Part shown: piece after piece, positions 12,345 through 49,285 of the stretch | Position numbering within the stretch: the first letter of the stretch is position 1 | Layout: each line of letters starts with the position of its first letter | Assembly (NCBI GenBank): GCA_019096195.1 | Contig: JAGTXK010000076.1 | Coordinates: 62,001 to 126,000 of the forward strand | Direction: 5' to 3' | Length of the DNA stretch: 64,000 bases | DNA from: Boletus sp. NGJ | Taxonomy: Eukaryota; Basidiomycota; Agaricomycetes; Boletales; Boletaceae | The notes under the pieces: model-generated | The model's input: the letters and a program-made list of their open reading frames with translations, nothing else | Told to the model about the DNA's origin: nothing | Databases searched by the model: none | Position numbers and translations under genes: made by a program

Positions 12345-13040
12345 ATGTTTCCAGGTAAGCACTCACTCTGCTTGGTCCTACCATATCCATTGAGGTTAGT
12401 CCTGCTCACACAGCTCAGTGTAATCGTATCTGTCAAGGTCAGCCACCTCCACTCTGCTCAGTCCTGCTGTATACATCAAGGTCAGTCACCCTCATACTGC
12501 TCGGTGTTGTCATATACATCAGCCCTTGGTCACCCCCACTCTGCTCAGTCCCATCATACACATTGAGGTCAGTCACACTCACCCTGCTCAGTGTGGTTGT
12601 ATACATTGGTACTTGGTCACCTCTACCCTCCTTGGTCCCACTGTATCCATCAAGGTCAGTCATGCTCACACTGCTCAGTGTGGTTGTATCCATTGAGGTC
12701 AGCCACCTCCACCCTGCTCAGTGTGGTCATATCCATCGAGGTCAGCCACCCTCACCCTGCTCGGTGTGGTCATGCATACATCGGTACTTGGTCACCTCTG
12801 CCCTGCTTGGTCCCACTGTATACATTGAGGTCAGTCACCTCTCATACTGCTCGGTGTGGTCATATACATCGGCCCTCGGTCACCCCCAACCTGCCCGGTC
12901 TTGTCATATACATTGAGGTCAGCCACGCTCACACCGCTCGGTCCTGTCGTATACATCGGTACTTGGTCACCCCCACCCTGCTCAGTCCCATTGTATGCAT
13001 TGACCTCAGTCTTACTCACCCCACTGGGGGCTGTTTCGTA
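12345..13040. repeat. Degenerate minisatellite, about 43-50 bp unit
   Basis: About 14-15 imperfect head-to-tail copies of a unit with the landmarks GTCAGCCAC, CACCCTGCTCAGTGTGGT and CATATCCATCGAG. Some copies carry an alternative GTACTTGGTCACC segment, so two unit types alternate irregularly. Because frame is partly kept, the array is open in several frames on both strands, but this is a by-product of the repeat and not evidence of a protein. Confidence 0.85.
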
Positions 13041-13229: not shown

Positions 13230-13673
13230 TCCTTCTCTACTCATTACATGAAGTCAACACTTCACTTTGTAAATCATTAGGATTAGAATATTGAGATTTG
13301 AATTGGGATTGGGATTGGGACTGGGATTGGGACTGGGATTAGAATTAGAATTAGAATTAGAATAGGAATTAGAATTAGAATAGGAATTAGAATTAGAATT
13401 AATAGAATTAATATTTGATTGAATTTGAAATTAGAATTGGCTTGAAATTAGATTAGGATTAGGATTGCTAAGCCACTATGGAAGCACTATGTATACTATG
13501 GCATCACTATGACCACTATGGAAGTACTATGAGAATACTATGAGATACTATGAGAATACTATGGCCACACTATGACAGACTATAAGATATTGTCATAGTA
13601 CTATCATACCACTATCCAGTTGAGCCCTTACTATGAGCACTATGTTACTAGACAGTTAGTCCTGTTTTTACTG
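13230..13673 (+). mobile_element. R1: right half of the R foldback-like element
   Basis: Homology to R2-R4 starts abruptly at 13230 with TCCTTCTCTACTCATTACAT. It runs through the hexamer array (ATTGGG/ATTAGA types, about 13290-13460) and the ACTATG-rich arm (about 13480-13640) to the right terminus CCTGTTTTTACTG at 13673. The left half is absent. The breakpoint is the same sequence at which R5 stops (50529-50548). Confidence 0.85.
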
Positions 13674-14790
13674 ATGTAGTCTAGTGCAGTTGTATTCATT
13701 TCATTAGTTGTGTGTTTGTCATTGCACATCTATTGCTATTGTAGATAAAGGAAGACAATTGAAACATTCACACTTGATATCCACTATTTATCACCATCCT
13801 CTCTACACTTTTGCACTATCTATAGATGATACTCTTGCCTACCACCAATCAAACTCCATCCCTACAATACCATGCATACAACTAGAGTAGTCTCTCACCA
13901 TAGACTTCCTCCTACAATATTCCAACAATCATATGAATACCCCACATATGCTAAATGTACTCCCATTATATCCATAACTATATGATACCAAGTAGCCTCA
14001 CAGCTAAATCTGGCATTCACTACCACAAGTACAGGCCCACATGCCTCTAAACTATGCCAACCTGTGGACATACCTGATGTAGTGCTCAGTATCCACACAA
14101 GGTTACTAATCAGGAGCTAGTCTCTAGATTACCCAACCAATAGAACTTGCCTCACAGCAACCCTCCTTTCAATCCTCTGATCACCGATTCATACCATAGA
14201 TCACTGACACCATTCCACAATGCCGTCACAAGGCTATTTATTAGATCTACCATAGATATCTTAGACAAGATCCAATCCATTCCCCAATGTGATCTCATCT
14301 TAATACCCAATCTAATAATCAATCTATGCAATGCCTTAAGCACTTCTTTTTCACTCCTCTTTCATTTCATCTTTGCATTCTAATCTATTGACTCCTTCTG
14401 ATATATCACAATGTAGCCATGTCTTATCACATTTCAAACTACCATTTCACTTACATGTGCTTAATGCATGCATCTCATTCTATCATACATCTCTTTTACC
14501 ATTGAACACTAACACTTCCTTGTTCCTGTGATGTCATACCCAGTACTCTACAACATCATAGCATAGCACAGTCTGTGCACCACTGCCGGTAGTATATACA
14601 TAAGTAGCTGGTAGAGTGCCATGTTTTCTTTAGTCTTGATATTGCCTCTCGCTCTCTTGCATATTGTCTTTGAGGTAATGCTTGAGATATCAGATATAGG
14701 CTTCATCTTTTTGTTCATTGATTGTTCCTTTCAACAGTTGATATAATATGACACAGACATGACAACATTACAAACAATATGCTGGACAGC
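13674..14790. other. AT-rich spacer, no gene seen
   Basis: CpG-poor, AT-rich DNA without a convincing frame longer than about 78 codons. It probably contains the 3' flank of the transposase relic that follows. At 14581 the stretch CACTGCCGGTAGTAT resembles the reverse complement of 16157-16171 (about 13 of 15 bases), a possible but unproven terminal inverted repeat of that relic. Confidence 0.3.
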
Positions 14791-19255: not shown

Positions 19256-21009
19256 ATGGATATGGAACAGGCCGTCCCGACTTTCAATGAATCTCCCGAG
19301 CAGCACAAGGACTTTGGCTTCCTTGTCGTTCCAAAACGACTGAGGTACTCTCCTGCTCATCCCTTCTATTTTGGACCGTGGACCAGGTTCGCCTTCGGCT
19401 CGGGATGCGCATTCAGTTAGTGTTCCACTTCCCAATCAGTACCTTTTCTGACCCCCAGAAGCTGTGGCGAATCTGTACTACTGCCAACCACTCCTGAGTA
19501 CGTCGTCCCTGTCTTCCTCGCCGTCCACGTCACGCATTCTCGTCTCCGTATGCAGTCCAGATGTCGATTGATTTCCAAACCACATACGCGAACGTATCGC
19601 TGTGAGTCATCTCATACAACATTCATTGTCCTCGCCTCATGTCTCTCTAGGGTTCCTACACTGTATCAAGTTGGGCATGTCCACTCACTCTCTATTAATC
19701 GATCCAAACTGAATGCTTCTGCGTAACAACAGATATTGTTTTGGACTGCTGTTCATATCGCCTCTGGGGGATCTTCTCCGGCGACGCCAGTTAATTTTGG
19801 CGCTCGTGATCATCACAACATGTCTCTCAGTTGGCTTGGTGCTGTCGACAAATTTCCTCGTCTTTCAGACATTCGCATTCCTTCTCGGAGTGTTCAACGT
19901 TACCCCTCAAATCCTTATACCCTTTGCCGTGGACTTGGCTTCTCCAAAACACCGTGAAGCCGCAGTGTCAGTTCTGCAGTCTGGCGTCATGTTGGGGATA
20001 TTACTAGCTCGTGTGGAAGCTGGCGTTATTGCTTACTTCTTTCAGTGGCGCGTGGTATACTATGTATCCATCGGGGTCCAGCTTGTTGTCTTGTGTGGAA
20101 TATACCTGCTCGTACCGGATCAACCCCCAAAAATCATGGTCTCACTTACTTCGATATATTTTACACGATGACCAAGTATGCCGTCACTGAACCGCGACTC
20201 ATACAGGCGGTATTCATCAATATTGCATCCATTGCATGCTGGTCGAACTTCTGGGTGACCCTGACTTTCTTTTTGGGTGGTCCACCGTATAATTACCCGA
20301 CGTAGGTTCCCTCGCAGTCGCGTTGAGCTCGCTGAAACTGAATTCCTAGGTTGTACGTTGGTTTATTTGGTCTCATCGGAGTCGTGGGCGTGTTGGCTGG
20401 GCCCCTATTCCGACGCTTAAGCCATCAATATGGCCCTTGGTGGTCGTTGGTTGCTGCGACCTTTTGTCTTCTCCTCTTACAGAGTGTCGAGACCGCGGCT
20501 GCAGGGATCAACATAGCTGTCGTAGTCATCTTTTGCATAGGACTGAATGCTTTCCGACAATCACAGACCGTTTCTCTGCAAACCATAGTCTTTGGGCAAG
20601 TCTTTTGCTGCTGGACCCACGAATGACGTTATCTAATCTATATTCACTCCAGCATCTCAGAAGATGCTCGATCACGTCTAAATGCCATCCTAACGCTTTC
20701 GGTATGTAATATCGTCTTCATGTACACTCTCGCTCATTCTCTCGGGGTACTTTTGCATAGCTTTCTGCGGGGCAAGCGATGGGCACGTCTGCGGGATCCC
20801 AAATCTTCTTAACTTGTGGCTGGCGTGCTGCTTCCGCACTTTCGATGGCGTTTTATGGGTGGCAGTTCTTTGTGCTCTTCCTTCGGGGTCCGAACTGCAA
20901 GCGATACACGTGGTTTGGCTACGAAGGTGGATTTGCCAATCAGGTGGAACAAACGCAGGACGACACTGCGACGCCCGCATCGCAAACGTCCTCCGTGCTG
21001 CGTGCATGA
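19256..21009 (+). pseudogene. MFS transporter, paralogue B (one-base deletion)
   Basis: Same architecture as A and D. Eight exons: 19256-19415, 19462-19497, 19556-19601, 19651-19674, 19733-20301, 20351-20596, 20653-20701, 20761-21009. Exon 5 is 569 nt against 570 in A and D; the frame shifts at about 20130 in a C5A5 run, between LVPDQPPK and HGLTYFDIFYTM. Elsewhere the frame is clean (GDLLRRRQLILALVIITTCL, FNVTPQILIPFAVDLAS, YVGLFGLIGVVGVLAGPLF, FGYEGGFANQ), so this is either a very young pseudogene or a base-calling error in a homopolymer; with one more base it would be 459 aa. Two donors appear to be GC: GG|GCATGT after exon 4 and GG|GCAAGT after exon 6. Both are fixed by the exon lengths of the paralogues. 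Start chosen at MDMEQAVPTFNESPEQ. Confidence 0.85.
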
Positions 21010-21784: not shown

Positions 21785-23541
21785 ATGACCTCCTCTTCCT
21801 CTAGTAGCACGACGACAGGATCACCGACGGAGGTCGGAGGACCTCCATCCACCGAACAAATGCTAGACGTCCGACATCCTACGTATTGATACGACTTTGG
21901 ATTTTTACCTATTCCCAAACGACTCCGTTAACGATCCAGACAAACCGTTTTACTTTGGCACGTTTCTGAACGTGTTCTTTGGCGTTTGTGACACTCTGGG
22001 TGAGCCCCAACCTATATTGACGTATATTCTCGTACGCTCGTGCGCAAATCTTTACTACTGCCAGTCCATATTGAGTAAGGGTGATCGCGCTCATGGCTCG
22101 GTTTCCCGGCTCATGGACGAATCCTAGTTCAATTATCGAATTCCTTCTCCGTTACCTATGACGAAGCACGTAGACAGCCCTGGTGATGTGTCTCGTCAGA
22201 ATACCCACTCTAGTACAGGCAGGGTAGGCTGCTGCTGTTTCACCTTTCAATTCACTCTTACTCATGATAACAGGTATGGAATCGGACTCTTGACCGTTTC
22301 TCCCATGGGTGACATGTTGCGTCGCCGTGGACTTATCCTCATCCTGGTGTCTTACCATCGGACTTGCAGTCACGAAAAACCTCTATGTCTTTGAAGTCAT
22401 CTCTTTCCTGATCGGGTTCACGTCTGTCTCTCCTCAAATATTTCTACCACTCGCAGCGGATCTGGCACCTCCAGAACGCCGTGCATTTGCTATGTCCTTG
22501 GTAGCGTCGGGATTCCTGATGGGCATCCTCATCGCCCGGGTTCTTTCCGGCGTCGTTGCCAACTTTGTGGGCTGGCGATACGTCTACTGGATGTTCCAAG
22601 GTTTAGTATTCGTCGGATCATACTTGGTGCTCCCCGAATATCCAGCTAAAGATCGACGACTGTCCTACCTTGGCATGTTCTCTTCCATGGCCAAATCCAT
22701 GGTGAAGGAACCACTGGTGGTTCAAATCGTGCTCGTCAGTATTGCTGCGAGCGCGTGTTACACCAACTTTTTTTTGGGTCACGCTCACCTTCTTGCTCGG
22801 CGGGCCTCCATATGAATATTCTACGTGCGTCATTGTTCGAAAATAGGGTCGTACGTACATTTGACGGACCTGCCTAGGAGTTTGATCGGCCTTTTTGGTC
22901 TCTTTGGTATTTTGGGCGTGATCGTCGTGCCATTGATGGGCCGGGTCATCGACAGAATGGCACCATGGCACATCGCCCTGGTGGCGACGCTCTCTCTCTC
23001 ATCGCCTTTCAAGCTATTCAGACCGGCGCTGGAGGGATCAACGTTGCTGCAGTGATCATTGCTTGTTTTGGTCTGGACGTATCCCGGCAAACCCAGCAGA
23101 TTTCCCTCGCGACGCTCATCTTTGGGTGAGTCTCGTCATCTCTCTCGAGGTATCGTTGACGTAAAGTTTCTGACGATGGATTTCGCAGCATCTCGGATAC
23201 AGCGCGTTCCCGACTGAATTCATTGCTCCTACTCGCTGTGCGTCGATTTGAACAACACTTCGTTGTGGGTCTTTTCTTGTTTCCTAACGTCTCCCTACCC
23301 CCTTTCCTTTTTTTGCCTTAGACAAGTGATGGGTACGTCCGTGGGGACACAGGTGTTTGTCGACCATGGATGGCGAGCAAACGTGCTGTTAGCGATGGCG
23401 TGGTTTGTGGCAGCTCTGTATCCTCCTGTTGAGAGGTCCGCGTTGTCCGCGTCAGCGATGGATAGGATGGGGGGGGGGTCTTTTGTGGACGAAGACAGAG
23501 GGTGGTTCGACGGCGGTACCTGGTCGGGCGAGGGACTGTGA
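21785..23541 (+). pseudogene. MFS transporter, paralogue C (multiply broken)
   Basis: Homologous to A, B and D along its length: start MTSSSSSSTTTGSPTEVGG, then YDFGFLPIPKRLR, ANLYYCQSILS, SPMGDMLRRRGLILIL, VSPQIFLPLAADLAPPERRA, GFLMGILIARVLSGVVANFV and VMGTSVGTQVFVDHGWRAN. At least six lesions are visible: a TGA at 21887, a one-base gain near 21929, a small deletion near 22350, an extra T in the T-run at 22768-22776, slippage in the CT run near 22990-23000, and a shift near 23410. The acceptor expected before ANLYYC also lacks a good AG. It is therefore a decayed array member with an intact-looking promoter. It is closer to D than to A or B in the segments I compared (LTIGL, TNFF, VMGTSVGTQVF). 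Confidence 0.85.
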
Positions 23542-25735: not shown

Positions 25736-25738
25736 CAT

Positions 25739-26832
25739 CAGTAAATACAGGATTTCATCATAGTGCTCATAGTGCCATAGTAGTTTCATAGATAACTCAT
25801 AGTATTCATAGTATCATCATAGTATTGAAAGTGTATTCATAGTATTCATAGTATATTCATAGTGTTCATAGTATTATAGTGTCATAATACCATAGCATTT
25901 CATAGCATTCATAGTACATCCATAGTAGTCATAGTCATAGTAGTGATTTTAAGCTAATTCTAAACCTAAACCTAAATCAAAAGTATACAAAAAGTGTAGT
26001 CAAAGGTGTAGTCAAATGTTGTACAAAAAGTGTAGGAAAGAGTGTAATACAGTGTAGCAAAAATGCGCACCAAATGTAGCAAAAGTGTAGCAAATAAAGT
26101 GTAGTAAAAAAAAGCAAACAAAGTGTACCAAAAGTGTACCAAAAGTGCACACCAAAGTGTAGTAAAAGTGTAGTCACAAAGTGTACCAAAAGTGTAGACC
26201 TACATTCAAAAAATATTCAAGTCCATTTTCCCACACTCAGTGTTAAAAAAGCGGACATTGTTTGCCAATGTTTGTGCCACCATTCTTATATAAACAAGCC
26301 AGACTTCAAAAACTTTCCCACACTCCTTGTTTCTTAATTTTATCCTTCTCTACTCATTACATAAAGTCAACACTTTACTTTGTAAATCATTAGGATTGAG
26401 ATTAGGATTGAGATTGGAACTGGGACTGGGATTAGAATTAGAATTAGAATTAGAATTCTAATTAGAATTAGAATAAAGAATTAGTAGAATTAATATTTGA
26501 TTGAATTTGAAATTAGGATTGGCTTGAAATTGGATTAGAATTAGAATGAGAATTAGAATTGCTAAGCCACTATGGAAGCACTATATATACTATGGCATCA
26601 CTATGACCACACTATGAGATACTATGGGAATATGAACTATGACCACTATGAAAGTACTATGAGAATACTATGAGACACTGAGAATACTATGACAGACTAT
26701 GGCCACACTATGAACAGACTATGCGACACTGTCATAGTACTATCAAACCACTATCTAGTTGGACCCTCACTATGAGCACTATGTTACTGTCCAGCACTAT
26801 CCAGCACTGGACAGTTAGTCCTGTTTTTACTG
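25739..26832 (+). mobile_element. R2: full-length R foldback-like element, 1094 bp
   Basis: Left end CAGTAAATACAGG and right end CCTGTTTTTACTG are inverted repeats, which extend to CAT...ATG outside. The left arm (about 25760-25945) is built of CATAGTA-type units and the right arm (about 26565-26750) of their complement ACTATG, so the arms can pair. Between them lie a GTGTAG/GTGTACCAAAA array (about 25985-26200), a unique core (about 26205-26390) with CCAAT at 26265-26269 and TATATAAA at 26287-26294, and a period-6 array (TTAGAA/TTAGGA type, 26390-26560). No transposase is encoded. The protein-like frames over the GTGTAC array are repeat artefacts. Confidence 0.85.
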
Positions 26833-27478
26833 ATGCTGTCTCCTAGGGTTTTTAGATTGGGAAATGAATCCAACACACGTTTCCCCTATGCCTGTTCACA
26901 ATGTAACTGTATAATCTATGTCTAAAGGAATTGCTATTCCTGTTTCAGTTTACATTCCCTTGCAATCAGCCAAAGCCATTGATACCAATGCCCTCATTGA
27001 CAGCAGTGCAGAAATCTCCTGCATTGACTATCAATTCGTACATATGACACCACCACCTCCCTAATGTGCACCTTAAAAACCCTATCTGTGCTTGGAACAC
27101 TGACTTCTCCCTCAATAAGAACAGCAATATCAAGTTCATGTGCAACCTCTTTCTTTCCATTAAAAGAGTTCTTATGCACATCTCCCTCCATGCTCTTTCC
27201 TGCAAACAAGAAAATATAATTCTGGGATAACCCTGATTGCAGGAAACCAACCCCTCCATCAACTGGAAAGCTAAGACCCTCACCCTTGACACCTTGATTG
27301 ATCAGTCCAACGTCCTCTATCATCTCCATAATCAATCCCTTCCCTCACACGTCAACATCCCAGTGGATAGTGAACCCTCTGAATAACCTGACCATGTTGA
27401 CATTAACCTCACTATATGCCATCATCTCTGCAGATTTCTTCAGAAAGAGACTGATGAGAATCAATACCTCATCACTGC

Positions 27479-28424
27479 TGTTACGGTTACAGAAGGGGGT
27501 ACATCTTTTCCTCTCCCTTCACCCTCTGTAGGACTATGGGATGATTTGTTCTTTGACTCGGACCAGGGATTCCCCTAGGATTCTCCTGTGTCACCAACTC
27601 AGGCATTGCCCCATTTGGAACTCCCTTTCGAGGAAGTTACTCATTTGGTTTGGACACCGCCTTCTCTATTTCATTGATACATGCCTTTCATCTCTCTCTG
27701 ATTTGATCATAGGCATTGCCTCCTCGGCTGTGTTCTCTCGTGCACAGCCTAGTATTCCAAATCTCCATTTGACTGATGCCTAGATCCTTCATGGTAATCT
27801 TTAGTCTGCAACTTATGATTACCATATACAATACGAAGCCTGCTCTAGATGGGTAGGGCCTATAAATAGGGACACTGGCCCTTCATATAACTCTAACCTA
27901 GATCTACACTCCTTCCTGTGTAATCTACCAGCTTCTTCCACTACCAGTTCCACTTCACCTCAGAAGCTCGCTTCTGCTCTGGAGGTGATTGCCCTTGTGC
28001 TTGTGATCGTCTTCCTCGTCACTGCACACTTGTGTGGCCTCGTTGCCATCTGAACCTACTTCTAAAGCTTCGGCAACTCCAATGCCAACAGAGGTTGGCC
28101 CATATCAGTCAGGACTCCACCACTGACCCTGCAAGCCCAGGACTCCGCCACCGGCACTAGGCCGTGTAAACCCAGAGATCTAGTTTCTGGTCTCCACATC
28201 CAGTCTGCCCTTCCTTCTCAGAGGATTGTGCCACTGTAGGTAAATCCAAGACTTTGCCATTGGTCATAGAGGCAACCAGGACACTCTACGTAAAGCTAGC
28301 AGTCGGTCCCCAGTCCGAGGAACCATTGGGCCTCAGGAGGTATTTTCCCCTCAAGTCCTGCTAGTCCTATAATCAAACAGGGTTGATTATACGGGAACAT
28401 GTCACATTGTTACCCAGCATAACA
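27479..28424 (+). mobile_element. Solo LTR, type A (A1), nested in E1
   Basis: A 946-bp LTR beginning TGTTACGG and ending CATAACA, flanked by the 5-bp direct repeat ACTGC (27474-27478 and 28425-28429). It is related to the LTRs of E2 and to the solo LTR at 36050-36948. No internal region remains, so it arose by LTR-LTR recombination after insertion into E1. Confidence 0.9.
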
Positions 28425-29281
28425 ACTGCCAACCGAAACCATGTTATGCACCATATTATCTATGGAGAATATTGCTATGTTGCACAATTGGTCATCTCTC
28501 ACCTCACTGTAGCTACTGAACTCACTCAAGCTGCAGAGTTAGCCAAACTGAAGAAAACCCTTCCTGCTGAATATGCCGAATTCACATTAGTCTTCTTCAA
28601 AGAAGCTACCAATCATGTTCCTCCATTCCAACCCTATGACCACACCATCAATCTCAAGCATTCCTTCGTCCTGAAGATCAGAAAAGTCTACCCCCTTGCA
28701 CCCCCTGAAGTAGTGGCAACCAACATATTCATTGAAGAAAACCTCACATGTGGAAAGATCTGCCCCTTGAACTCTCCCCATGCCTCCCCCTTCTTCTTCA
28801 TCAAAAAGAAGAATGGTGACCTCTGTCCATGCCAAGATTACCAGTATATCAACAAACATGCTGTTGGTGATGCCTATCCTCTCCTCCTTGTCTCAAACCT
28901 CATTGATAAACTTTGTGGAGCCACCACCTTCACCAAGTTCGATGTCCAATGGGATTACAACAATGTTCGTATTAAAGACGGTCACCAATGAAAGGCAGTG
29001 TTTATCACTCATAAATGCCTCTATAAACTGTCATATTCCATGCAACTTAACAAGTCCAACTCCAGACCTCCATCCATAACTCCGGTGTGTTCCCCCTTGG
29101 AGTACACTCTCATACCCTTGGACTTGTAACTCACCCCACATAGTATTCCTACTTCCTCATTCATACATAAAGCTATGTCCTACTCATCTGTCTTAGTCCC
29201 ACTTTGTAGCTATCTCCAATCCAGTGTCTGTCTTGCTTTAGGAGCACCACTCCAGTGAGGTCCCATCTCTGTTCCTAATTA

Positions 29282-30855
29282 CAGTGGCTCAAAAAAGTGT
29301 CCCAATGTTTGACTATTTTGGCAAAGACTTGACATTTGCAAAAGAACCAAAAGGCATTAGCCCTAACCCTTGCTGGGCCATTGATAGCCCTAATCCTTGC
29401 CCTGAAGATGAGCCCTTAGTCATGTGAGTTGGTTGTCATGGTACTGAGTTATAGCCATATTAAAAGGATATGTCATTGGGACACTTATTTGACCCTGATA
29501 TTATCAACTATCATTTAGTAAATAACATAAGGTTCTGATGGATGCTGTGCTTCAACCCTGTCTGATTATGTCACTTACATAACTCCAAATGGTATAAAGA
29601 GCAGAGATACCATTCAGCCAACCCTACCTCATTATGAAATCCACTCCCTCCTCTGCTAGAGCCAATATTCTTTTTCTCTCTGAATCTGGCCTTTCTACTA
29701 GGCAAATATCATTCCAAACTGGTCTGGGGAAGTCTACTGTGGCCAGGGTTATCAAGGAGATCCACCCAGGCAAGGAAAACATCAAATTAGGATGTCCTTC
29801 TAAACTCTCTCCTACTGATAAAAGGAGAATTGTCTCTAGTATTACCTCTGGCAAAGTTGAAAATGCTGTCCAGGCTACCCATCTCATCAATTCTGCTCTC
29901 TCTTCTCCTGTCTCTGCTCAAACTGTTAGGAATGTTCTCAAGTCTGCATCTCTCAAGGCTGTAGTCAAGAAAAAGAAGCCACTCTTGTCTGTGAAGCATA
30001 GGCAACATAGGCTAGCCTTTGCTCTCAAGCACCAACATTGGACTGTGGAGGACTGGACTAGGGTTATATGGTCAGATGAAACCAAGATCAACAGGATTGG
30101 GTCAGATGGAAGGAAGTATGTATGGAAATTGGCAGGAAAGTCTTTGCAAGACAAGGAAGTTCAGGGAACAGTAAAGTTTGGAGGAGGTTCCTTGATGGTT
30201 TGGGGATGCATGAGTTGGAGTGGAGTGGGGATTCTTGCAGAGGTTGAAGGGAGGATGAATGCTGAGCAGTATGTCTCCATTTTGGAGGATAATCTGCTTC
30301 CTTCCATGGAAAATTCTGGAATTCCTGAAGGAGAGCATTATCTTTCAACAAGATAATGATCCCAAGCACACCTCTAAAAGAGCCAAGGAGTGGCTGGAAT
30401 CTCAAGGGATCAAGCTTCTTGACTGGCCAGCACAATCTCCAGACCTTAATCCCATTGAACATCTCTGGCAAATCCTCAAAAAAAAACTCAATAGCTATAC
30501 AACACCACCAAAAGGAGTATGGGAGCTTTGGGAGAGAATTGAAGTGGAGTGGGGGAAGATAGAGGTTGAGGAGTGTCAAGGATTGATAGAGAGTATGCCT
30601 AGAAGACTAGAGGCAGTGATAAAAGCAAAGGGAGGGCATACAAAGTACTAAATTGAAGAATAGAAACGTTGCTCAAAAAAGTGTCCCAATGACATGTCAC
30701 TTTAATATGGCTATATCTCAGTGCCATAACAACCAAATTATATGACTAAGGGCTCATCTTCAGGGCAAGGATTAGGGCTAATACCTTTTGGTTCTTTTGC
30801 AAATGTCAAGTCTTTGCAAAATAGCCAAACATTGGGACACTTTTTTGAGCCACTG
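29282..30855 (+). mobile_element. Tc1-family DNA transposon with long inverted repeats, 1574 bp
   Basis: TA target duplication at 29280-29281 and 30856-30857. The ends begin CAGTGGCTCAAAAAAGTGTC and the inverted repeats run for about 190 bp, unusually long for Tc1 but known for IR/DR-type relatives. The motif CTCAAAAAAGTGTCCCAATG also recurs at the inner edge of the right repeat (about 30672), as expected of a direct repeat inside each inverted repeat. It is inserted in solo LTR B1, itself inside E1, so it is the youngest of three layers and is well preserved. Confidence 0.92.
29634..30651 (+). pseudogene. Tc1 transposase (DD34E), one frameshift
   Basis: Cut-and-paste transposase. The first frame (29634-30356) has the paired helix-turn-helix DNA-binding region (ARANILFLSESGLSTRQISF; VSAQTVRNVLKSASL) and the first catalytic Asp in VIWSDETKINRIGSDG, then GGGSLMVWGCMSWSGVG. 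The second frame (to 30651) carries the second Asp in IIFQQDNDPKHTSKRAKEW and the Glu in QSPDLNPIEHLWQILKKKL. Asp and Glu are 34 residues apart, the Tc1 spacing. All three catalytic residues are present. The two frames are joined by a single one-base shift near 30330, and no other lesion is evident, so the copy is recently inactivated or carries a sequencing error. Confidence 0.88.
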
Positions 30856-33659
30856 TACTCAGCTACTACTTACTCATTACACCTTACAAACTCCATTAGT
30901 AATCTCGTTTCCGATTGTATATAAACCTTTGCTACTACTCTTGTAAAGTCAGTTTGAATATCAATTCTGAACACCACTCCTGTCCTCTGTTCAAGTCTTG
31001 ACAACTCACTCTGATCCTCTGCTCAATTTGACATTCAACCACATCAAGTCCAAACCTCTGATCTTACTACGTCCTCGAAATCCAGGACATCGGACTTGAG
31101 CAAGGGCGCACCACATAAGGTGAAGCCAAGTCCCGACACCCTCAAGTAACTCTGGTCCTTCGGAGTTGCATCAGAGTTGTCTGTTCTTAACAATGAATCC
31201 ACCATCATGTTCTTTGGTCTTTGTAACTTCCTGGCCACCTTTTAATGTTTCATGAATGACTCCTTCTGTGACATGATAGCCAAAGGCTGGCTGGTCATTT
31301 ATATGGATGACCTCCTCATCTTCTTGAAACATCATACATCAAGCACACAAAACACATTTTTCAACGAATGTTTGAGCTCGATCTCCATCTCAAGCTTGAG
31401 AAATGTGACTTTGCTGTTGACAAAGTAGAATACCTTGGGATGATTGTTCACCCCAACTCCCTCTCCATGAACCCTGTTAAGCTTGACAGCATCACCAAAT
31501 GGCCTGTTCCTACCTGCACCACTAGCGTCTGCTCATTCCTTGGCTTCACCAACTTTTATCAGTGATTTATCCATGACTATTCAACCACAGCTTGCCCTCT
31601 CATCGACCTCACCTGTCAGAATCACCCTTGGAATTGGATGCCTGCTTGTTAGGAAGCCTTCAAACACCTGAAATGCCTCTTCCTGGCAAAACCAGTTCTC
31701 TGCCTTCCTAACTTCTCTACCCCCTTCACTATCACAACTGATGCCTCCAAGTTTGCATCTGGCACTATCCTTCTCCAAACCAACTCTAATGGGGATTTGC
31801 ACTCCTGTTCCTACCTCTCTGATTCGTTCTCTCCAGCCAAACAAAACTATGACATCTATGATTGGAAACTGCTGGCCATCATCTATGCTTTGAAAGTGTG
31901 GTGACACTACCTCTATGGTTTTTCCTTCCCTGTCCAGGTCTTCACTGACCACAAGAACCTTGCGTACTTTTGTGTGCCCCAAAACTTAAACCATTGACAA
32001 GCTCATTGGATGCTTGATCTCACCAACTTTGATCTCCAGATTATCCATGTCCCTGGTCGTCTCCTTGCTGGCCCCAACACACTCTCATGCTGTCCTGATC
32101 TTATCTCCTCGAACACCCCAGAAAACGACAGTGTCACCCTTCTTCCACCTTCATTATTCATCAACTTGATGGATGTTTCCCTCTCCTCCCACATTCACTT
32201 CGCCTCTGCAGGTGACCCCCTTGTTCTCCAACAACTACAGACTATTAACATCTCCATGCCTGCTTTCCTTTGCTCCTGCATGTCTGATTGGCAGCATGTG
32301 GATGGCCTCCTCACATATCATAGCCATGTCTATGTTCCCCCCAAAGGCAACCTTTGGAAGTCCATCCTCATGCACTGCCATGACCACCCCTCCACCGGCC
32401 ACTCTGGTTACCTTAAAATCCGCCAACTTGTCTCTGCTGACTTTTGGTGGCCCAGCCTCACCTTCTATGTGCATTTGTATGTTGAAGGATGTCCCTCCTG
32501 TCAACAGCACAAAGTGAATACTCACCCTATGACCCCCCCCCCTTACTCCCATCTGGTTGTCCTCTACTCTCCCCTTCTGCCAAATCTCATGTGATCTGAT
32601 CACTGACCTTCCCCCCTCTGCTGAGTTCAACTCCTTGCTGGTTGTGGTTGACCATGGGCTTACAAAGGGGGTAATTCTTTGCCCCACAAAGAAAATGGTC
32701 ACTGCTGAAGGAATCACCACTCTCTTCTTCTACAAAGTATACCGACACTATGGTCTCTATGATAAAATTATCTCTGACTGTGGACCCCAATTTGCTTCCA
32801 CATTCACTAAAGAACTTGATAAACTTCTAAACTATGACATCTTCTTATCCACTGCCTACCACCCCCAATCTGACAGTGAAACCGAACATATTAATCAAGA
32901 GATTGAAATCTACCTCCGCATCTTTTGCAGAAACAAATCCACCTCATGGTCCGAAAAGATCACACACACAGAATTCACTCACAACCACTGACCCCACTCC
33001 ATCACAGGGCAATCACTATTCTCCCTCCTCCTCGGATATGAACCTTGTCCATTACCCTTGATTCTACCTGACACAGCTATACCCGTGGTAGAAGACCACC
33101 TCAAACACCTTGCTGCAGCAAGGAACAAAGCCTTAGTGGCCCACGAACTTGCCCAACAAACCATGATCTCCCACTGAAAGAGGTTGTTCAAAGCTTTCAT
33201 CAAAGAAGATCAAGTCTGGCTCGAAGTCAGGAATCTGAAGCAACATGACGCTGACCCAAGATTCTCGGCTAAACAGGAAGGCCCCTTTACCATCACAGAT
33301 GTCCTATCCCCAATCATCTATAAACTCCAACTTCCCAAAACCTAGAAGATCCACCCTGTATTCCATGCCTTCCTTCTTTCACCTTATCACAAGAACACCA
33401 TTTACAGCAAACATTTCCCTTCTCCCCTGTCCAACCTTATCATGGGCAAAAAGGAATACAAAATTGAAAAGATCTTATGACACTGCAGAACCCTGTCTTA
33501 CCATTCCTTTCTGATCTGATGGAAGGGATATTCTGCCAAAGAAGACTCCTGGGTCCCAGAACGGGATCTGAAAAATGCAAAATCCGCCCTTATCAACTAT
33601 AAGAAACATCACCCCAAAATGTTTCCCCTCAGTACTTCTCTTCCCAGAACCACCACCAA

Positions 33660-34560
33660 ATGATAAACTCACCGACCACATCCATTCCCAATGAGTTGTC
33701 CTTCACTACCTCATCTTGTTCCCTCTCCCCAAACTTTGTATCACCATTACCTCATATGCATATTTCACCTATTACTGTCCCCTGCCCTTCATTGCAACCC
33801 TCTCCTTTTACTGTTGTCAACAATAACTCTTGCCCTCTTACCCCTTTTACACCTCCTATCTGCCGTGCAACTGAGACTCCTTGCCCACCATACCTTGGCC
33901 AACGCCTCCATTACCATTACTTAGATTCGCCTGCGGGCTATCTACGACAACCTCCATGCTTCACTTGTTACTACTCTCCATTAATTAGTTGCCATGGAAT
34001 TCCTGGATGACCTTGACCGCTACCTTTGAGAATTCTCTACTGTCCTGTGACCACCCACCATTCCACCGCTATCACCTGTCCCCTCCACTCCATCTGCATC
34101 ATCAACCGCCCTTCTTTACAATGAACTGTATTTCCTTGACTGTGTCAAACAAAATTGGACAGGAAACAATGGCTGCACCCCCTTGAGCAGTACTCATCTC
34201 TGGTACTATGAGACATGTTATCATTGTCACCACCTTGACCACATTCAGGTCAACTGTGAACATTATCAATGCCCCATGTGTCTCAACTAATCCCTGGGTC
34301 ATACTCAAGATCACTGCCCACTCCGTCGTTGTCCAGCCCCACTCCTCCCTTGTTATCCTTCCCATCCTCTTCTTTCACTCAGTCTTTCCACTTGCCACAA
34401 TCCATCTGACCTATCTGCCTTCACTGCACTATGTGTCACATGCCAAGGTGTCCCTTCCATCAGTCTCACTCCCCCCAGAAAGACTTGGACTATGGAGACA
34501 ACTTTGATTATGGAGATGAGGCCATTGGTAATATTACAGATTCTCCACAGGGTGACTACC
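33660..34560 (+). other. Third ORF region of E1 (zinc-knuckle-like), fossil
   Basis: Downstream of the chromodomain the fossil continues for about 900 bp with Pro/Ser/Thr-rich frames and a cysteine/histidine cluster near 34210-34290 (CYHCHHLDHIQVNC and further Cys). A comparable region sits in the same place in E2. It is broken. Function unknown; gag proteins normally carry such knuckles, but here the position is 3' of pol. Confidence 0.55.
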
Positions 34561-34609: not shown

Positions 34610-34860
34610 TGTTACAATTCACTGCTATGTTCATCTTTTCTTTCATCCTTTCCTTCATCCTCTTCACTGTCTCTGCTCATCAGACCATACATCAACCAGT
34701 CTAGGCCTCTGTTGATGTGTCTTCCAGTTCCCCTTGGCTCTACCAGCTGATTACTATACTTTTATAACTCACATGGAATCCCTTTCATCTCTGTTTTTGC
34801 TTCCATGGGATTCCACTGGCTTCTATATCTTACCCATCCTTTTCCATTGCAACTCAACAT
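34610..34860 (+). mobile_element. Partial 3' LTR, type C (C1), of E1
   Basis: Begins TGTTACAATTCACTGC and matches the first roughly 250 bp of the type C LTR at 38702-39286 (which is in minus orientation). It is cut off by R3, and the rest is not found on the other side of R3. Confidence 0.8.
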
Positions 34861-36047
34861 CAGTAAAAACAGGACTAACTGTCCAGTGCTGGACAGTACT
34901 GGACAGTAACATAGTGCTCATAGTGAGGGTCCAACTGGATAGTGGTTTGATAGTACTATGACAGTGTCTCATAGTCTGTTCATAGTGTGGCTATAGTCTG
35001 TCATAGTATTCTCAGTGTCTCATAGTATTCTCATAGTACTTTCATAGTGGCCATAGTATTTCCATAGTATCTCATAGTATTCTCATAGTGTCTCATAGTG
35101 TGGTCATAGTGATGCCATAGTATATATAGTGCTTCCATAGTGGCTTAGCAATTCTAATTCTCATTCTAATTCTAATCCAATTTCAAGCCAATTCTAATTT
35201 CAAATTCAATCAAATATTAATTCTACTAATTCTAATTCTAATTCTAATTCTAATTCTAATTCTAATCCCAGTCCCAGTCCCAATCCCAATTCAAATCTCA
35301 ATCCTAATGATTTACAAAGTAAAGTGTTGACTTCATGTAATGAGTAGAGAAGGATAAAATTAAGAAACAAGAGAGTGTGGGAAAGTTTTTGAAGTCTGGC
35401 TTGTTTATATAAGAATGGTGGCACAAACATTGGCAAACAATGTCCGCTTTTATAACACTGAGTATGGGAAAATGGACTTGAATATTTTTTGAATGTAGGT
35501 CTATACTTTTGGTACACTATGACTACCCTTTTACTACACTTTTGGTACACTTTTGGTACACTTTGTTTGCTGCACTGTACTACACTCTGCTACACTTTTG
35601 TTTGCTTTTTTTTACTACACTTTGTTTGCTACACTTTTGCTACATTTAGTGCGCATTTTTGCTACACTGTATTACACTCTTTCCTACACTTTTTGTACAA
35701 CATTTGACTACACCTTTGACTATACTTTTTGTATACTTTTGATTTAGGTTTAGATTTAGAATTAGCTTAAAATTACTACTATGACTATGACTACTATGGA
35801 TGTACTATAAATGCTATGAAATGCTATGGTATTATGACACTATAATATTATGAACACTATGAATACACTATGAATACTATGAATACACTTTCAATACTAT
35901 AACACTATGAACACTATGCACACTATGAATATACATACTATGGATACTATGAATACACTTTCAATACTATGATACTATGATTACTATGAGTTATCTATGA
36001 AACTACTATGGCACTATAAGCACTATGATGAAATCCTGTATTTACTG
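34861..36047 (-). mobile_element. R3: full-length R element in reverse orientation, 1187 bp
   Basis: Reads as the reverse complement of R2: CAGTAAAAACAGG at the left, then the CATAGT arm, the TTCTAA hexamer array, the unique core (TTATATAAG complement at about 35405), the GTACAC array, the ACTATGA arm and CCTGTATTTACTG at the right. It directly abuts the partial type C LTR on one side and, after two bases, the type A LTR at 36050 on the other. No clear target duplication. Confidence 0.85.
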
Positions 36048-36049
36048 AT

Positions 36050-36948
36050 TGTTATGCTGGGTAACAAGTGACACATTCCTGAGTACTCAACCACCTGGTT
36101 GATTACTGGACTAGCTGGACTTGAGGGGAAAATACCTCCCAAGGCCCAAGTTCCTCAGTATGGGGACCGACAGCTAGCTTTAACATAGAGCCTTCCTTGG
36201 GATTGGAGCCTTCTCTATGACCAATGGCAGAGTCTTGGATTTTGATGATGGTGGCATAGTCTGATGGAGGTGCAGACCTATTGTATGCAGTGGCCGGTGG
36301 CAGAGACCTAGGCTTATATGGTTGCTAGTGGCAGAGTTCTGGGCTTATGTATATGGGCAGACCTCTGTCTGCGTTGGTGTTGCTGTTGGCTAGGTACATG
36401 ACCAAACAGTAACAAGGCCACACAAGTGCAAAGTGGTGAGAAGGACGATCACGAGCACTGTGGTGATCACCTTCAGAGCAAGTGTAGGCTTCTAAAGTGG
36501 AACCGAGAGCTGGGTAGATTACATGGGAAGTTGTGTAGATCTAGGTTAGAGTTACATGAGGGGCGAATGCCCCTATATATAGGCCTTCCCAATCTAGGGC
36601 AGGCTTTGTAACATATATGGTAATAGTAGGTCGCAGACTGAGTATTACCATAAAGGATCTAGGCATCAGTCAAATGAAGAATTTGGAATACTGGGCTATG
36701 TACAAGAGAGTACAGCTGAGGAGGCAATGTCTATGATCAGATCAGAGGTGAAATGCATATATCAATGAAATGGAAATGAGGCTGTATCACAGCCAAGATG
36801 AGCATCACTTAGAAGGGGAGTTCCAGATGGGGCGATGCTTGTATAGGTGTTGTGGGGGAATCCCTGGTCATAGGAGTTGAAGAGGAGGTCATCCCATAGT
36901 CCAGGAGGGGGCAAAGGAAGAGAAAAAGATGTACCCCCTTCCATAACA
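36050..36948 (-). mobile_element. Solo LTR, type A (A2)
   Basis: 899 bp on the minus strand, TGTTATGGAAGG to CCCAGCATAACA, related to A1 and the E2 LTRs. It sits at the end of the gag remnant of E3. The base pairs flanking it do not match (GTTAC on the gag side, R3 on the other), so one flank has been replaced. Confidence 0.85.
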
Positions 36949-39286
36949 GTAACACTGATGCACTTCCAATAACTTCGTTGTCGGAGTCTTCTTTACTTTC
37001 CTTAACCACTTGTACTTTCTGTTCCTTAGGGCAGTTGTTGGCAAAGACTGAGCAGGTGGTAGTGGTGTGGCTGGGATGTCAGCAATGGAAGCAAAGTTTG
37101 TTTTTGAAACAGTGTTCTCATTCAGCAGGAGTCATCTTGGGAATAGAGATGGTGTTGACATCCATAGCGTTGGGGTCATGGGATTTGGTCAATGTGGGGG
37201 TGGAGAAGGAGTGGTACATGTGGGTAGAGGGCTTGTTATACCTCTTGGCAATTTTTTTGGTGCATTTCCACTGGACTTGGAAATGAATAGCTTTTGAATA
37301 CCATTTGTTGATGGTGGTGGGGACCATGTCCATAGACATGACACATCGCATGAGACCAGCAGGGATTTCAGCAGAGTAGTATCCAATCAGGATGTTGGGA
37401 TCCATAATCTTGGTGAGACAAGCGTTGTTCTGGAAATCGGAAGTATATTCCATCAATGTAGGGGAGTAGGTATTGTTGGTCTTCTTGACCATGCATTTTG
37501 TAGAGAGCCAGGCAATGTGTTAAGAACAAGAATTTCAAAGTACTGGAGTTGACTGAGAGTGTTGGGACTTGGCTTCACCTAATATGGTGTGCCCTTGCTC
37601 GAGTCCGATGTCCTGGATTTTGAGGATGTAGGAAGATCAGAGGTATGGACTTGACATGGTCAAACATCAAGTTGAGTGGAGATCAGAGTGAGTCATCAAG
37701 ACTTGGACAGAGGACAGGAGTGATGTTCAGAGTTGATATATATTTGAACTGAGTCTACAGGAGTTGTATCGAGGGTTTATATATGATTGGAATGAAGGTA
37801 TTAGTAATAGGGTTCATAAGATATGATGAGTAATGGAACGGAGTTGGTACCTTGCCAGAGCAGTGCTCTTAAGCGAGACAGACACTGGATCGGAGGTATG
37901 AACAGAGTGAGACTAGGGCGGATGAGGAAGCATAGGTATACACAAATGAAGAGATGAGATTACTATAATGTAGGATATACAAGTTCGAGGGCACAGAAGC
38001 GTGTTCCAAGGGAGAATGTGCTGGAGTTGTGGGTGGAAGTCCAGAGTTGGACTTGTTAGATTTATACGAGATATGACACAATGGCATTGCCTGTGGTGTC
38101 ACAGTGTTTAAATGCCTTCTTGAAGGCAGTGATGAAGTCAGTGAAGCTACCAAGATTCACTCCAGTAGTGGAGATGGCTTTTTATTGGAAGGTGTTTGCC
38201 CAGGTAAGAGCAGATCCTTTAGACATATAAGACAAAGCGAAGACGATTTGCTTGTCTCATTGTCATAGACTTTAATGTTAACATGAAGATAGAGTTGGAT
38301 GGTGTTTAGCCACTGCATGGAAGTGTCATGGGATCCAGTGAAGGGTTCAGGGGCAGCAATGCGAAGTTCAGTTGGTTTGACAGCAGTCATATTAGCAGCA
38401 GGTGGTGGTGGTAGTAAGAACAAAGGGGTGGCTGTCACTGGCATTGGGAACAGGGGTGTGGAGTTCTGTGGAATATGGAGTCCTAAAGCAAAATGTTGCA
38501 ACAGGTCAAAGGCATCGTCCTGTTGTTGTTGGGACAGGAGGTCAAGGTTACTGAGAGTGTCGTCCTCGTTAGTGTTGGAGTATTCTGTGTCAGGTGATGT
38601 AGGCAAAGTAGTGCACCACCAACTAGGGTCAAGGGCAGGTCATTAATAAGCTATTGTGGAGGATTATGCAATGGTAACCTCGAAGATCAAGTAGAACCTT
38701 TTGTTATGACAGACTTGGGTAGAGGCAGTTGTAGACTTGAAAGGTGATGCACACCAACTAGGTGATGTGGACAAGGGACAGATGGTGTTAAGGACTGCCA
38801 GAGATGCAGATGCAAAGGGTCTTCCTTCACAGAGATTGAGGACTATGAAGAGCCTCACAAGGATGAGTAGCTGGAGTAGCTACTGGAGTTCACATGGTTA
38901 AAAGGACAAGTGTCCGGTCAAGAGTAGGACAAGAACTCATAGAGATCCTGGAGACAATGTGAGAGTAGATTCAAGTAGGTTCTACTTAGCAGACATTGTA
39001 TTTAGGGTCGGATTTATATATGTAAGGCATAGAAGCCTTCGAGTTGCAATGGGAAAGGATGAGTAAGATATAGAAGCTGGTGGAATTCTGTGGAAGCGAA
39101 GGTGGAGATGAAAGGGATTCTGTGTGAGTTATAAAAGTATAGTAATCGGCCGGTAGGGCCAAGGGGAACTGGTAGACATGTCAACAGAGGCCTAGACTAG
39201 TTGATGTATGGTCTGATGAGCAGAGACAGCAAAGAGGATGAAGGAAAAAATGAAAGAAAAAATGAACATAGTGGTGAATTGTAACA
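36949..39286 (-). mobile_element. E3: Ty3/gypsy fossil, 5' LTR plus gag only, minus strand
   Basis: From right to left: 5' LTR of type C (38702-39286, 585 bp, TGTTACAATT to GTCATAACA), then a gag region (about 38606 down to 36960). The gag includes a capsid-like part (MQWLNTIQLYLHV; KPTELRIAAPEPFTGSHDTS) and a zinc knuckle (CFHCRHPGHTTTTC near 37080). Solo LTR B2 is nested in gag. Pol is missing here; E1, which has pol but no gag and the same LTR type, lies in opposite orientation beyond A2 and R3. Broken, with at least one large loss and a few coding breaks. Confidence 0.8.
37518..38078 (-). mobile_element. Solo LTR, type B (B2), nested in E3
   Basis: 561 bp, TGTCATATCTCG to TTCTTAACA on the minus strand, flanked on the plus strand by the perfect 5-bp repeat CAATG (37513-37517 and 38079-38083). 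It is homologous to B1 in E1. Confidence 0.92.
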
Positions 39287-39830
39287 TAGGGGTTGAAGGG
39301 TGTTGCTGGCCCAAGCTCATCAGGCTTACTCACCATCCAATCTTTACACAAGCTATCCATCAAACACAGGTGGTGTACTCCATTTCCGACCCAATGGATT
39401 CCTCACTTCCTCGTCAATTTCAATCTCCAGGTAACCGAATATGTAAAACTCACCCTTATCCCTCTCCCACTTCTCATGGTCCTTACATACACTGGATCCA
39501 ACAAATGGATCAAAGAGCAGAACTCACTGGATGATGGTATGAATTTGCTGCTCTGTCACCCATCTAATTGGAAGGGCACACTCTCTGGCTCTGCAATCAG
39601 GACTCGGATTCAGACACAAGGACATCTCCAGTGCTATCCGGGTCAGAGGTCACTTGCCTGATTGTTGGCATCAGTTCCATCTAGGCTAAAGGAGGCCATC
39701 ATCACTGACATCGCATCAATATCCCAGGTAGCTCATCTTAAGGAATGGTACATGTACCAGGGCTTCGAACAGACCACCTTGAATAGGTTTAACTATGCAT
39801 CTTGTGATCTATTCAATGGTTCATCAATAC
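39287..39830 (+). repeat. Left flank of E2: unrecognised gene-like fragment and segmental repeat copy 2
   Basis: A frame at 39293-39661 reads MKGVAGPSSSGLLTIQSLHK and later WIKEQNSLDDGMNLLLCHP; intron-like GTAACC and GTAGCT sites are present, so it may be a decayed spliced gene of unknown family. The last 60 bp (CCACCTTGAATAGG onward) match copy 1 at 24190 and continue beyond E2 at 48017. Confidence 0.45.
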
Positions 39831-40746
39831 TGTTATGGTTATGGAAAGGGGTATACCTTTTTCCCTTCCTTTGCGCCCTCCTAGACTCTGAGATGACCTA
39901 CTCTTTGACTCCTATAACTTAGGATTCCCCTGGGATTTCCCCAGGACACCCACACAAGCATCGCCTCGTCCAGAACTCCCCTTCTAGGTGATGCATCACT
40001 ATGGCTGTGACACAGCCCTCTATTTCACCTATATGTATTTCACCTCTGATTCAATCACAGACATTGCCTCCTCAGCTATATTCTCTCATACATAGCCTAG
40101 TATTCCATTTCCTCATTTGTCTGATGCCTTTAATCTCCTTTTATAGTAATATTTGATCCACAATCTCATATTACTATATACGATGAGAAGCCTGCCCTAG
40201 ATTGGAAAGGCCTATATATACAGGCATACACCCTTCATGTAGCCCTTAACCTTGATCTACACTTCTTACTGTGTAATCAACTCAATTCTTGGTTCCACAT
40301 CATTTTAGGGTCTGTGCCCACTCTGGAAGTGACAACACTCATGCTTGTGATACTTCTTCTCATCACTTCACACTTGTGTGGCTTTCTCACTACCTGTTCG
40401 CACGCTTAACCAGTGATGACATCTATGCAGACAGGGTTCTGCTCAGGAAAGGTTGTTCGCACATCTAACCAATGGTAATACCAACACAGGCCTCTACAAG
40501 AAGGGTTTCCTTGTAGAATAATAGGACAACAGGCATCACTATCCTTAAAGTCCAAGACTCCGCCATTGGTCATAGAAACATCCCTCAGTCTCTCTAGAGG
40601 AGGAGACACTACATAAAGCTAGCTGTCAGTCCCCATGCCTAGGGAACTCGTGCCTAGGGAGCCAGTTGCTCAAGTCCAGCTATTCTGGTAATCAACCTCT
40701 GTTGATTACACAGTAATGTGTCACCCATTTACAAGTGGTCATAACA
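39831..40746 (+). mobile_element. 5' LTR of E2 (type A)
   Basis: 916 bp, TGTTATGGTTATGG to GTCATAACA. A TATATATA stretch lies near 40213. The middle part (about 39970-40428) appears identical to the 3' LTR, while both outer parts are clearly diverged. Confidence 0.9.
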
Positions 40747-45799: not shown

Positions 45800-47080
45800 T
45801 GCCCAGGGATAACACCTTCATATTCATACTCCTAGCTTGCATATCTGCTGCCCTTACCCAAGCCCACCTTCAGAAACAATATCCCGACCTTTGATATCCT
45901 CAAGCACATTGGACAACACTCTTGCTTCTGCAAGATCAACTACTGCCCATACCAGACCAATTGGGAGATGGCAATCGTCCCCCTCTCTGAACACCTTACT
46001 CGACTCTCCTCCATCCATCGTCGAAACCTTTATGCCACCATTCTTGACAACCCCGTCACACATTCAAGCCCTCCAATCCATCCCCTTCTTTACCTGCGAT
46101 GATTCCCTCATTCAGCTCGTTGCCCTTTATAAATCCTACTCCACACTTCGATCCCTTCTCACCAGGACCACTGGGAACTCAGCAAGTTCCCATGTCTTCA
46201 ACGCCCAGCTGACTGCTAAAGAAGAAAGAGCCATGGAAAGTGTCGTTGAGATCGTGAACTTATTCTTGACCTTCTCTTCATTGAGGGATTCAACTACTCC
46301 CTCACCCTTTTATCCATCAACAACCTGTGATCACCTCCTCCACACCACCCTACTCTCCCTCTCAGAAGAGAAAAGTCACCTTTTCTTTGCTTCCTCATCA
46401 ACCACCATGCCCTCCTACCCCATTCCACTTTGATGAATCTCTTTCATTACAGAGTCACCCCAGGAGAACGTCAATGGAGTCAGAAGCATTAACGGAGTTG
46501 ATAAAAACTCTCCAGAGACACAGAGAGCCAAGTCCTCTGATGACACCATTGTTTGCCTCCCCTTCCTCCATGACCTCCAACACCTCCACCCAAGGGACCC
46601 CCTCAGTACCAGTCCTCCCCCAGCCTGCCCTCTCGCTCCAATGCCAGAGGCCTTTTCCACACACTGGGGGACACTATACACAAGGAGCCCTCTCTTCTTC
46701 CTCTGTTCCCATTCCTGGAGCCACTGCAGGCACCTCTCCTCCCAACCATTCTGACTCAATGGCTGGTAATTCCCATCCCCTGTCCAGCACCCGCTTGAGT
46801 CATCACCATCGAGCTCCTGTCTCCAGCCTCCACTGCCTTGAATGTGGACATCAAGGTCACCTTCAGCCAGCCTGCCCCCACTACCAATGCCCCTACTATC
46901 AGGTGGTTGCCCCCAACCATCCACAGTATGCTTGCCCAAAAAGAACCTGCACCTACTGTGGAGAGCGAGGACATGGCTACCAGATCTGTTCCAGCCAAGA
47001 AGTCTTTGACAACTCATGGGACCTCACCAACTATGAGGAGAATGAGGGAGATAGAAGTTCTTGAGATGGAACTTCAAGAC
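45800..47080 (+). other. Third ORF region of E2 (CCHC-like), fossil
   Basis: Downstream of the chromodomain. Two overlapping frames (45837-46433 and 46327-47064) are rich in Ser, Thr and Pro. The distal one ends with three cysteine/histidine clusters: CLECGHQGHLQPAC, CPYYQVVAPNHPQYAC and CTYCGERGHGYQIC, the first and third of the CX2CX4HX4C zinc-knuckle form. The region lies just before the 3' LTR. Its homologue in E1 is in the same place. Function unknown. Confidence 0.65.
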
Positions 47081-47094
47081 TACAAAGGGGGTAA

Positions 47095-49278: not shown

Positions 49279-49285
49279 ATGTGTG

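Follow-up and report, generated by a model that had tools for sequence, protein, structure and literature searches.

A dispersed, gene-free transposon family of Boletus with ends and target duplications like those of PlavakaB elements

The R family of Boletus sp. NGJ is a dispersed, mobile and hairpin-capable family of elements built mostly of short tandem arrays. The first-pass annotation of this DNA left the family unrecognised; its end sequences and target duplications match those described for PlavakaB. R is very probably a non-autonomous cut-and-paste DNA transposon of the PlavakaB type, within the CMC/CACTA-like clade, on which a Plavaka transposase would act in trans, and it is best classed as a new, non-autonomous family within this type and not as a new kind of element. 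Judged by title and the start of the abstract, none of the papers listed on non-autonomous or MITE Plavaka elements, fungal foldback elements and mushroom miniature elements (Repbase excluded) describes R. The reference copy occupies positions 25736-26835 (+) of the window, the 64-kb stretch analysed here, which corresponds to C50:62001-126000 in a 32.8-Mb genome assembled into 141 contigs.

Inspection of the window bore out the proposal that it contains five R copies, three of which have both ends and two of which are partial. The reference copy, its terminal CAT...ATG included, is flanked by TA and CT and thus shows no duplication. A second full copy (34858-36049, -) has an altered last base, and an LTR-like repeat starts at 36050, directly at its T-end, the left-type terminus of the element. 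The third full copy (48169-49281, -) carries TG on both sides in the window, which reads as a 2-bp duplication CA/CA in the orientation of the element. One partial copy (~13230-13676, +) is a right half that starts inside the core and runs to the right-type end, or A-end, at 13661-13673, with 75.5% identity to reference positions 605-1050; a tandem array of 87-bp units at 12404-13019 adjoins it. The other (49837-50548, +) retains only the left part, from the T-end to reference position 624. When the window was scanned with CAGTAAAWACAGG at up to 2 mismatches, 10 matches were obtained, 8 of which are R ends, compared with a mean of 3.12 and a maximum of 8 in 100 shuffles.

Outside the window, a DNA search of the genome with the reference copy returned at least 129 matching pieces on many contigs among the best 40 of 271 candidates. 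Allowing 1 mismatch, ATYAGTAAAWACAGG matched the whole genome 160 times in forward and 151 times in reverse orientation, against 4 and 10 matches for the reversed control, and longer queries for left-type (AGTAAATACAGGATTTCATCAT) and right-type (AGTAAAAACAGGACTAACTG) ends gave 141 and 138 matches, respectively, with 0 for the controls. These counts of T-ends and A-ends correspond to roughly 140 copies in the genome. Independent insertions must be fewer, since contigs C50 and C35, and likewise C81 and C122, have R-insertion flanks in common. The members of each pair look like homologous copies of one region, rearranged in the case of C50/C35, suggesting either that both nuclear haplotypes are partly represented in the assembly or that segmental duplications are present.

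To define the termini, we assembled a sample from the window and loci L001-L099 (357,123 bases), in which T-ends and A-ends lying 400-10,000 bases apart, with no T-end between them and at least 60 bases of flank, were paired. Removal of flank duplicates left 50 copies, including one composite (L075, 302-2440) and some that have one or both flanks in common, namely L040 with L043, the 25.7-kb window copy with L054, and L053 and L054 with the 34.9-kb window copy. Left and right flanks were compared at offsets 0 to 7, with 2- to 4-mers, which gives 64 combinations for 2-mers. The strongest 2-mer offset of the 64 lies three bases outside the ends first quoted for the family, where 22 of the 50 copies have a 2-bp duplication directly outside CAT...ATG (mean 4.68 and maximum 10 in 300 shuffles). 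Twelve kinds of dinucleotide are duplicated, so that R is not a family restricted to TA. A 3-bp match was seen in another two copies (CTA in L057, CTT in L094), a number that taken alone is near chance, and 26 of the 50 have neither a 2-bp nor a 3-bp duplication. Boundary 4-mers match in only 2 of 50 copies (shuffled mean 0.24, with 2 reached in 10 of 300 shuffles), which indicates that a duplication of that length or more is not the rule. The triplet CAT precedes CAGTAAA in 45 of the 50 copies (the exceptions being AAT, TAT twice, CAC and CCT), and ATG is found at the other end in all 50.

The positions of these boundaries are corroborated by unfilled sites. The joined flanks of those of the 50 copies with enough flank were compared with the letters fetched for the analysis, giving matches across the junction for nine (e6, e14, e22, e25, e34, e38, e41, e43 and e46). 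Three of these (e22, e25 and e43) were dropped, their matches being R copies themselves, and of the other six, four were inspected, e34 and e46 being left aside. Four R copies (L005, L018, L070 and L074) sit in repeats for which a paralogous site without R is present, and all four unfilled sites lack CAT...ATG and have a single dinucleotide at the junction. This dinucleotide is TA for L018 and L074; for L070 (e38) it is CA in 2 of the 4 subjects shown and TG in the other two, and for L005 (e6) it is GC instead of GA. The single TA of the e14 site is less telling, as it lies in a TA-rich stretch. The four unfilled sites fix the element as 5'-CATCAGTAAAWACAGG...CCTGTWTTTACTGATG-3', with CAT and ATG belonging to R. 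The ends given by the first-pass annotation do coincide across copies, and the true boundaries, as the duplications and empty sites reveal, lie three bases further out. At these boundaries R has terminal inverted repeats of 16 bp, CATCAGTAAATACAGG at the T-end (25736-25751, +; 16 columns with 1.9% mismatch over 40 copies) and CATCAGTAAAAACAGG, read inwards, at the A-end (26820-26835, -; 16 columns, 1.6% mismatch, 40 copies).

Dispersal, coincident ends, the 2-bp duplication and the four unfilled sites together uphold the proposal that R is mobilised as a unit. An expansion of simple repeats in the manner of a satellite, with no transposition, would accord with the tandem arrays that make up most of R; we give it practically no probability in the face of copies on many contigs, ends that coincide, a module order that is the same in 40 of 40 copies, empty sites and target duplications. 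Confinement to a single locus or ends that fail to coincide had been named beforehand as signs of such an expansion, and dispersal and shared ends contradict both.

The 28 of 50 copies without a 2-bp duplication are more than we would expect mutation alone to erase, as the median divergence of R copies from the majority sequence is 3.3%. Ectopic exchange between R copies is suggested as the cause. On contig C35, the T-flank of L054 is that of the 25.7-kb window copy (96% over 304 bases) and its A-flank is that of the 34.9-kb window copy (93% over 298 bases), while over 299 bases the A-flank of L053, also on C35, does not differ from that of L054. Window flanks therefore recur beside C35 copies in new combinations, suggesting recombination between R elements, with the caveat that this A-flank is itself repeated and is also found, at 88%, at window positions 39041-39287.

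Elements of PlavakaB, a group of Agaricomycotina with a PF18759 transposase, are described as having the termini 5'-CATCA..TGATG-3' and duplications of 2 or 3 bp, those of PlavakaA as having TGT..ACA and 2 bp, and EnSpm families as having CAC..GTG and 3 bp, with PHISTA and ESTA using TA; CA..TG outer ends and short duplications are shared by the CMCT clade as a whole (PMC12730594). R has both the CATCA..TGATG termini and the 2-bp duplication of PlavakaB, and it is assigned to this group by its terminal features, the PlavakaB lineage itself being defined by transposase phylogeny. Unlike PlavakaB elements, R has no transposase, is 1.1 kb long and consists almost wholly of short tandem arrays. 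The features common to the CMCT clade would also suit an ordinary CACTA/EnSpm, PIF/Harbinger (PHIS) or Spy-like element with a short duplication or none, and the R flanks alone can be read as an insertion into CATG that duplicated either AT or nothing at all. We nevertheless regard such an origin as quite unlikely, for R has CATCAG..CTGATG ends and a 2-bp duplication where CACTA/EnSpm elements have CAC..GTG and 3 bp, it duplicates 12 different dinucleotides and not TA only, and the empty sites place CAT and ATG within the element. In particular, insertion into CATG with duplication of AT, or between A and T without duplication in the manner of Helitron- or Spy-like elements, is ruled out by the 2-bp match outside CAT..ATG and by the empty sites.

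Between its termini, R consists of modules whose order is constant in all 40 of the full-size copies compared, a biased sample drawn from the top DNA matches and from the contigs that were listed first. Excluding CAT and ATG, these copies are 945-1383 bp long, and their median pairwise identity is 0.938 (range 0.706-0.989). The T-arm (25752-25944, +) consists of TCATAGT-type units in a single orientation, with 16.1 CATAGT and 0.0 inverted units per copy in the first 260 bases of the 40 copies. It is followed by an array of GTGTA/GTGTACCAAAA with a period of ~11 (25980-26197, +), which Tandem Repeats Finder reports from 25990, by a unique core with CCAAT and TATATAA (26205-26390, +), which outside the terminal repeats has the fewest gaps (1.0%), and by a period-6 TTAGAA array (26389-26560, +). 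This last module is the most variable: its mismatch is 7.9%, whereas the arms, the GTGTA array and the core have 3.2-3.6%. The A-arm (26570-26785, +) is composed of ACTATG units, which are CATAGT inverted (12.5 inverted and 0.82 direct units per copy in the last 260 bases, 40 copies), and a small palindrome seen in folds (CCAGCACTGGACAG; 26786-26815, +) adjoins the A-end. All of these modules except the small palindrome had been proposed from the letters alone, and Tandem Repeats Finder recovered the CATAGT, GTGTA, TTAGAA and ACTATG arrays in R copies. In the reference copy, the count of each of these four motifs exceeds that in every one of 500 dinucleotide-preserving shuffles: 15 for CATAGT (mean 0.84, maximum 7), 15 for ACTATG (mean 0.48, maximum 3), 14 for GTGTA over the whole copy (mean 2.79, maximum 9) and 9 for TTAGAA (mean 0.74, maximum 4).

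In agreement with the earlier reading that R encodes no protein, no frame is common to all 40 copies; the longest ATG frames span at most 110 amino acids (median 90), and the two commonest starts of the longest frame occur in 9 of 40 copies each. Autonomous Plavaka elements are defined by an element-encoded PF18759 transposase (PMC8290104); R, with no kept frame and no such transposase encoded, is not one of them. No Rfam family reaches its cut-off in R, and the sole hit at E <=1 places the 26786-26815 palindrome with mir-4782 at 20.8 bits (cut-off 100; E 0.68). The core looks like an RNA polymerase II promoter, with putative activity, on the strength of CCAAT in 33 and TATATAA in 37 of the 40 copies (counted anywhere in the copy).

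The arms were expected to be able to form a hairpin, and this expectation held. When the reference arms (220 and 250 bases) were joined and folded as DNA, the predicted energy was -97.1 kcal/mol, with 149 of 173 pairs formed between the arms, compared with -40.6 kcal/mol (sd 4.0) for 60 shuffled arm pairs (z -14.2). Folding of the arms over the 40 copies, performed without shuffles, gave a median of -91.3 and 149 pairs (range 97-165). The description of the arms as long and complementary stands insofar as the unit arrays are oppositely oriented; rather than one long and perfect inverted repeat, they form imperfect ones made up of a single short, oriented unit. Foldback elements likewise have arms that consist of short tandem units and can fold into a large hairpin. 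Strong pairing and long, inverted, repeat-built arms are what would be seen if R were a classical foldback element of the Foldback/Galileo kind (P superfamily) or a foldback MULE, its arms serving as terminal inverted repeats. Such elements duplicate 7-11 bp of target, however, whereas R duplicates 2 bp and has terminal repeats of 16 bp that match those of PlavakaB, and the likeness of its arms to one another stems from a single oriented hexamer. Membership of this group is accordingly very improbable, and the term foldback-like remains apt as a description of shape and not of affiliation.

If R is indeed a PlavakaB-type element, a Plavaka transposase would recognise its CATCAGTAAAWACAGG ends, and the same protein, probably together with a helper or by means of a domain of its own, would bind the oppositely oriented CATAGT arrays, much as TNPA does on En/Spm. 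This transposase would be supplied in trans, R itself coding for nothing, and insertion would proceed with a 2-bp, perhaps at times a 3-bp, target duplication; the core would then represent a leftover promoter. Each element has ~28 candidate binding sites, with ~16 CATAGT units running one way and ~12 the opposite way, and their position and orientation suggest that the arrays are probably docking sites for a transposase from a relative. Conservation of the units gave no significant sign of selection in either arm, with 2.8% mismatch in T-arm CATAGT against 4.3% in the spacers (20 of 188 shifts as low) and 2.8% against 3.5% in the A-arm (60 of 236 shifts as low). In maize En/Spm (CACTA), TNPA binds subterminal repeats that are the cis-determinants of excision, and the proteins of the element act in trans on deletion derivatives (PMC2613891). 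Those derivatives resemble R in being non-autonomous and in having subterminal repeats; theirs are bound by protein, whereas binding to R is putative, and the ends and the duplication length differ.

The CATAGT and GTGTA arrays and the CCAAT/TATA core might instead constitute a regulatory array, a platform for an element-coded protein that titrates the transposase or, as with the VANC targets, lifts silencing; VANDAL21, the element concerned, belongs to the MULE superfamily. We consider this function unlikely for R. In the VANDAL21/VANC anti-silencing system of Arabidopsis, non-coding tandem repeats of short motifs, to which those of R are similar, are binding sites of an element-coded protein (PMC10398659), and this is a plant system, unlike that of R. 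Were the arrays regulatory, gene-free R could outcompete its autonomous parent and bring a promoter to new places. With respect to docking of a Plavaka transposase, the reading we favour, R offers a compact, high-copy, gene-free substrate with exact ends, ~28 oriented candidate sites and empty sites, rendering the cis requirements of the transposase directly testable in a little-studied group of mushroom transposons. In the mushroom Marasmius oreades, about half of the DNA elements belong to either KDZ or Plavaka (PMC8290104).

A candidate source of transposase is present in the genome, which has 131 matches to PF18759 at E <=0.001, where one gene can yield several matches and many contain internal stops (introns ignored); none of 14 control genomes has a match. 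The clearest case is locus L095 (C94:122850-132000), in which the T-arm of an R copy has been opened by a 7,230-bp Plavaka element (locus positions 160-7389) with TA on both sides. Its ends, CATCAGCAAA...TTTGCTGATG, are of the CATCAG..CTGATG type, and 9 of R's first ten bases are found in its end. It contains a PF18759 frame at 3009-4151 (E 5.1e-18) and, on the opposite strand, a DUF6698 frame at 1386-1973 (E 1.4e-30). At least one transposase-bearing element with PlavakaB-type ends thus exists in the same genome as R. The best motif common to the R arms and the ends of this nested element, CCAGCACTGGAnAG, was reached in 1 of 300 shuffles and stems from one of 8 comparisons, and is too weak to connect them. 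The nested element has a CpG observed/expected ratio of 0.79 and may be a recent arrival.

The end CATCAGCAAA occurs 204 times in the genome, against 39 for the reversed control, and the 100 places listed include at least 5 inward-facing pairs with spacings of 137-375 bp (C11, C35, C50, C63 and C73). These short pairs look like candidates for further gene-free relatives; those on C35 and C50, both 137 bp, may represent one insertion. At L093:990-1231, inward-facing CATCAGTAAAATTACA ends ~240 bp apart, to which an end in L039 is similar, perhaps mark another small gene-free relative.

A search for a partner with the same termini had been recommended along with a copy count and a flank alignment. 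The Plavaka element with the related ends CATCAGCAAA is present, as described, and among the end pairs read from the first 100 places listed for each pattern, none combines R's full 16-bp ends with a transposase; the pairs at C20:278974-288918, C35:260208-262993, C21:418637-420825 and C124:1311014-1313063 were wholly or partly left out. Most of the wide pairs that were read turned out to be R copies interrupted by other repeats, or R fusions. The inserts of L040 and L041 hold Tc1/mariner-like frames (DDE_3, HTH_Tnp_Tc3_2), and the DNA of L092 resembles the L041 insert. A DDE_Tnp_4 match in L094 falls below the cut-off (22.8 against 24.8 bits), and the wide pair of L095 is the R copy with the nested Plavaka. 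In L042, L043 and L097, at least part of the insert corresponds to an LTR-like repeat; of L100 (3.2 kb of C77:142-149 kb), one piece is 96% like the L092 insert and the frames are Ty1/copia-like by eye. In both L044 and L096, R copies have fused in inverted orientation; L098 contains a 100-bp R end next to Plavaka and Tc1-like DNA that also occurs in L099, and the R copy of L091 has an insert of ~1 kb. In L039 (C43:16200-24200), the R part ends at reference position 375, where it adjoins a broken Plavaka; we take this to be a truncated R beside a Plavaka, since only two mirror copies span the junction among the best 40 of 176 candidates. The partner of R may lie in further end pairs or outside the assembly, or may be extinct.

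Locus L039 is palindromic over at least 7.4 kb, counting its flanks, and contains two A-ends and the broken Plavaka; the palindrome is possibly an assembly artefact. Relatives of a 182-amino-acid frame in this locus lie close to Plavaka matches on C62, C11 and C48, so that the frame may be a second gene of a Plavaka family.

In the window, the CpG observed/expected ratio is 1.15 and 0.97 in the gene-rich parts (1-6000 and 52001-64000) and 0.02-0.25 in the four transposon stretches measured, including 27478-34557 and 36050-47999; the median R copy contains 2 CpG where ~30 would be expected. Direct repeats at 39829-40731 and 47095-47999, 7.26 kb apart, enclose what by eye are reverse transcriptase and integrase frames, marking 39829-47999 as an LTR retrotransposon, and single relatives of the repeat at 36050-36957 and 27478-28424 are probably solo LTRs. 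A Tc1/mariner-like transposase frame, apparently interrupted and with one CpG in 1.1 kb, occupies 29598-30700, and a close relative of it (HTH_Tnp_Tc3_2, DDE_3) is nested in the R copy of L040. Four similar frames, at ~6550-7245, 19713-20171, 22294-22815 and 51517-52248, flank the transposon block on both sides and appear by eye to belong to a single MFS-like transporter family.
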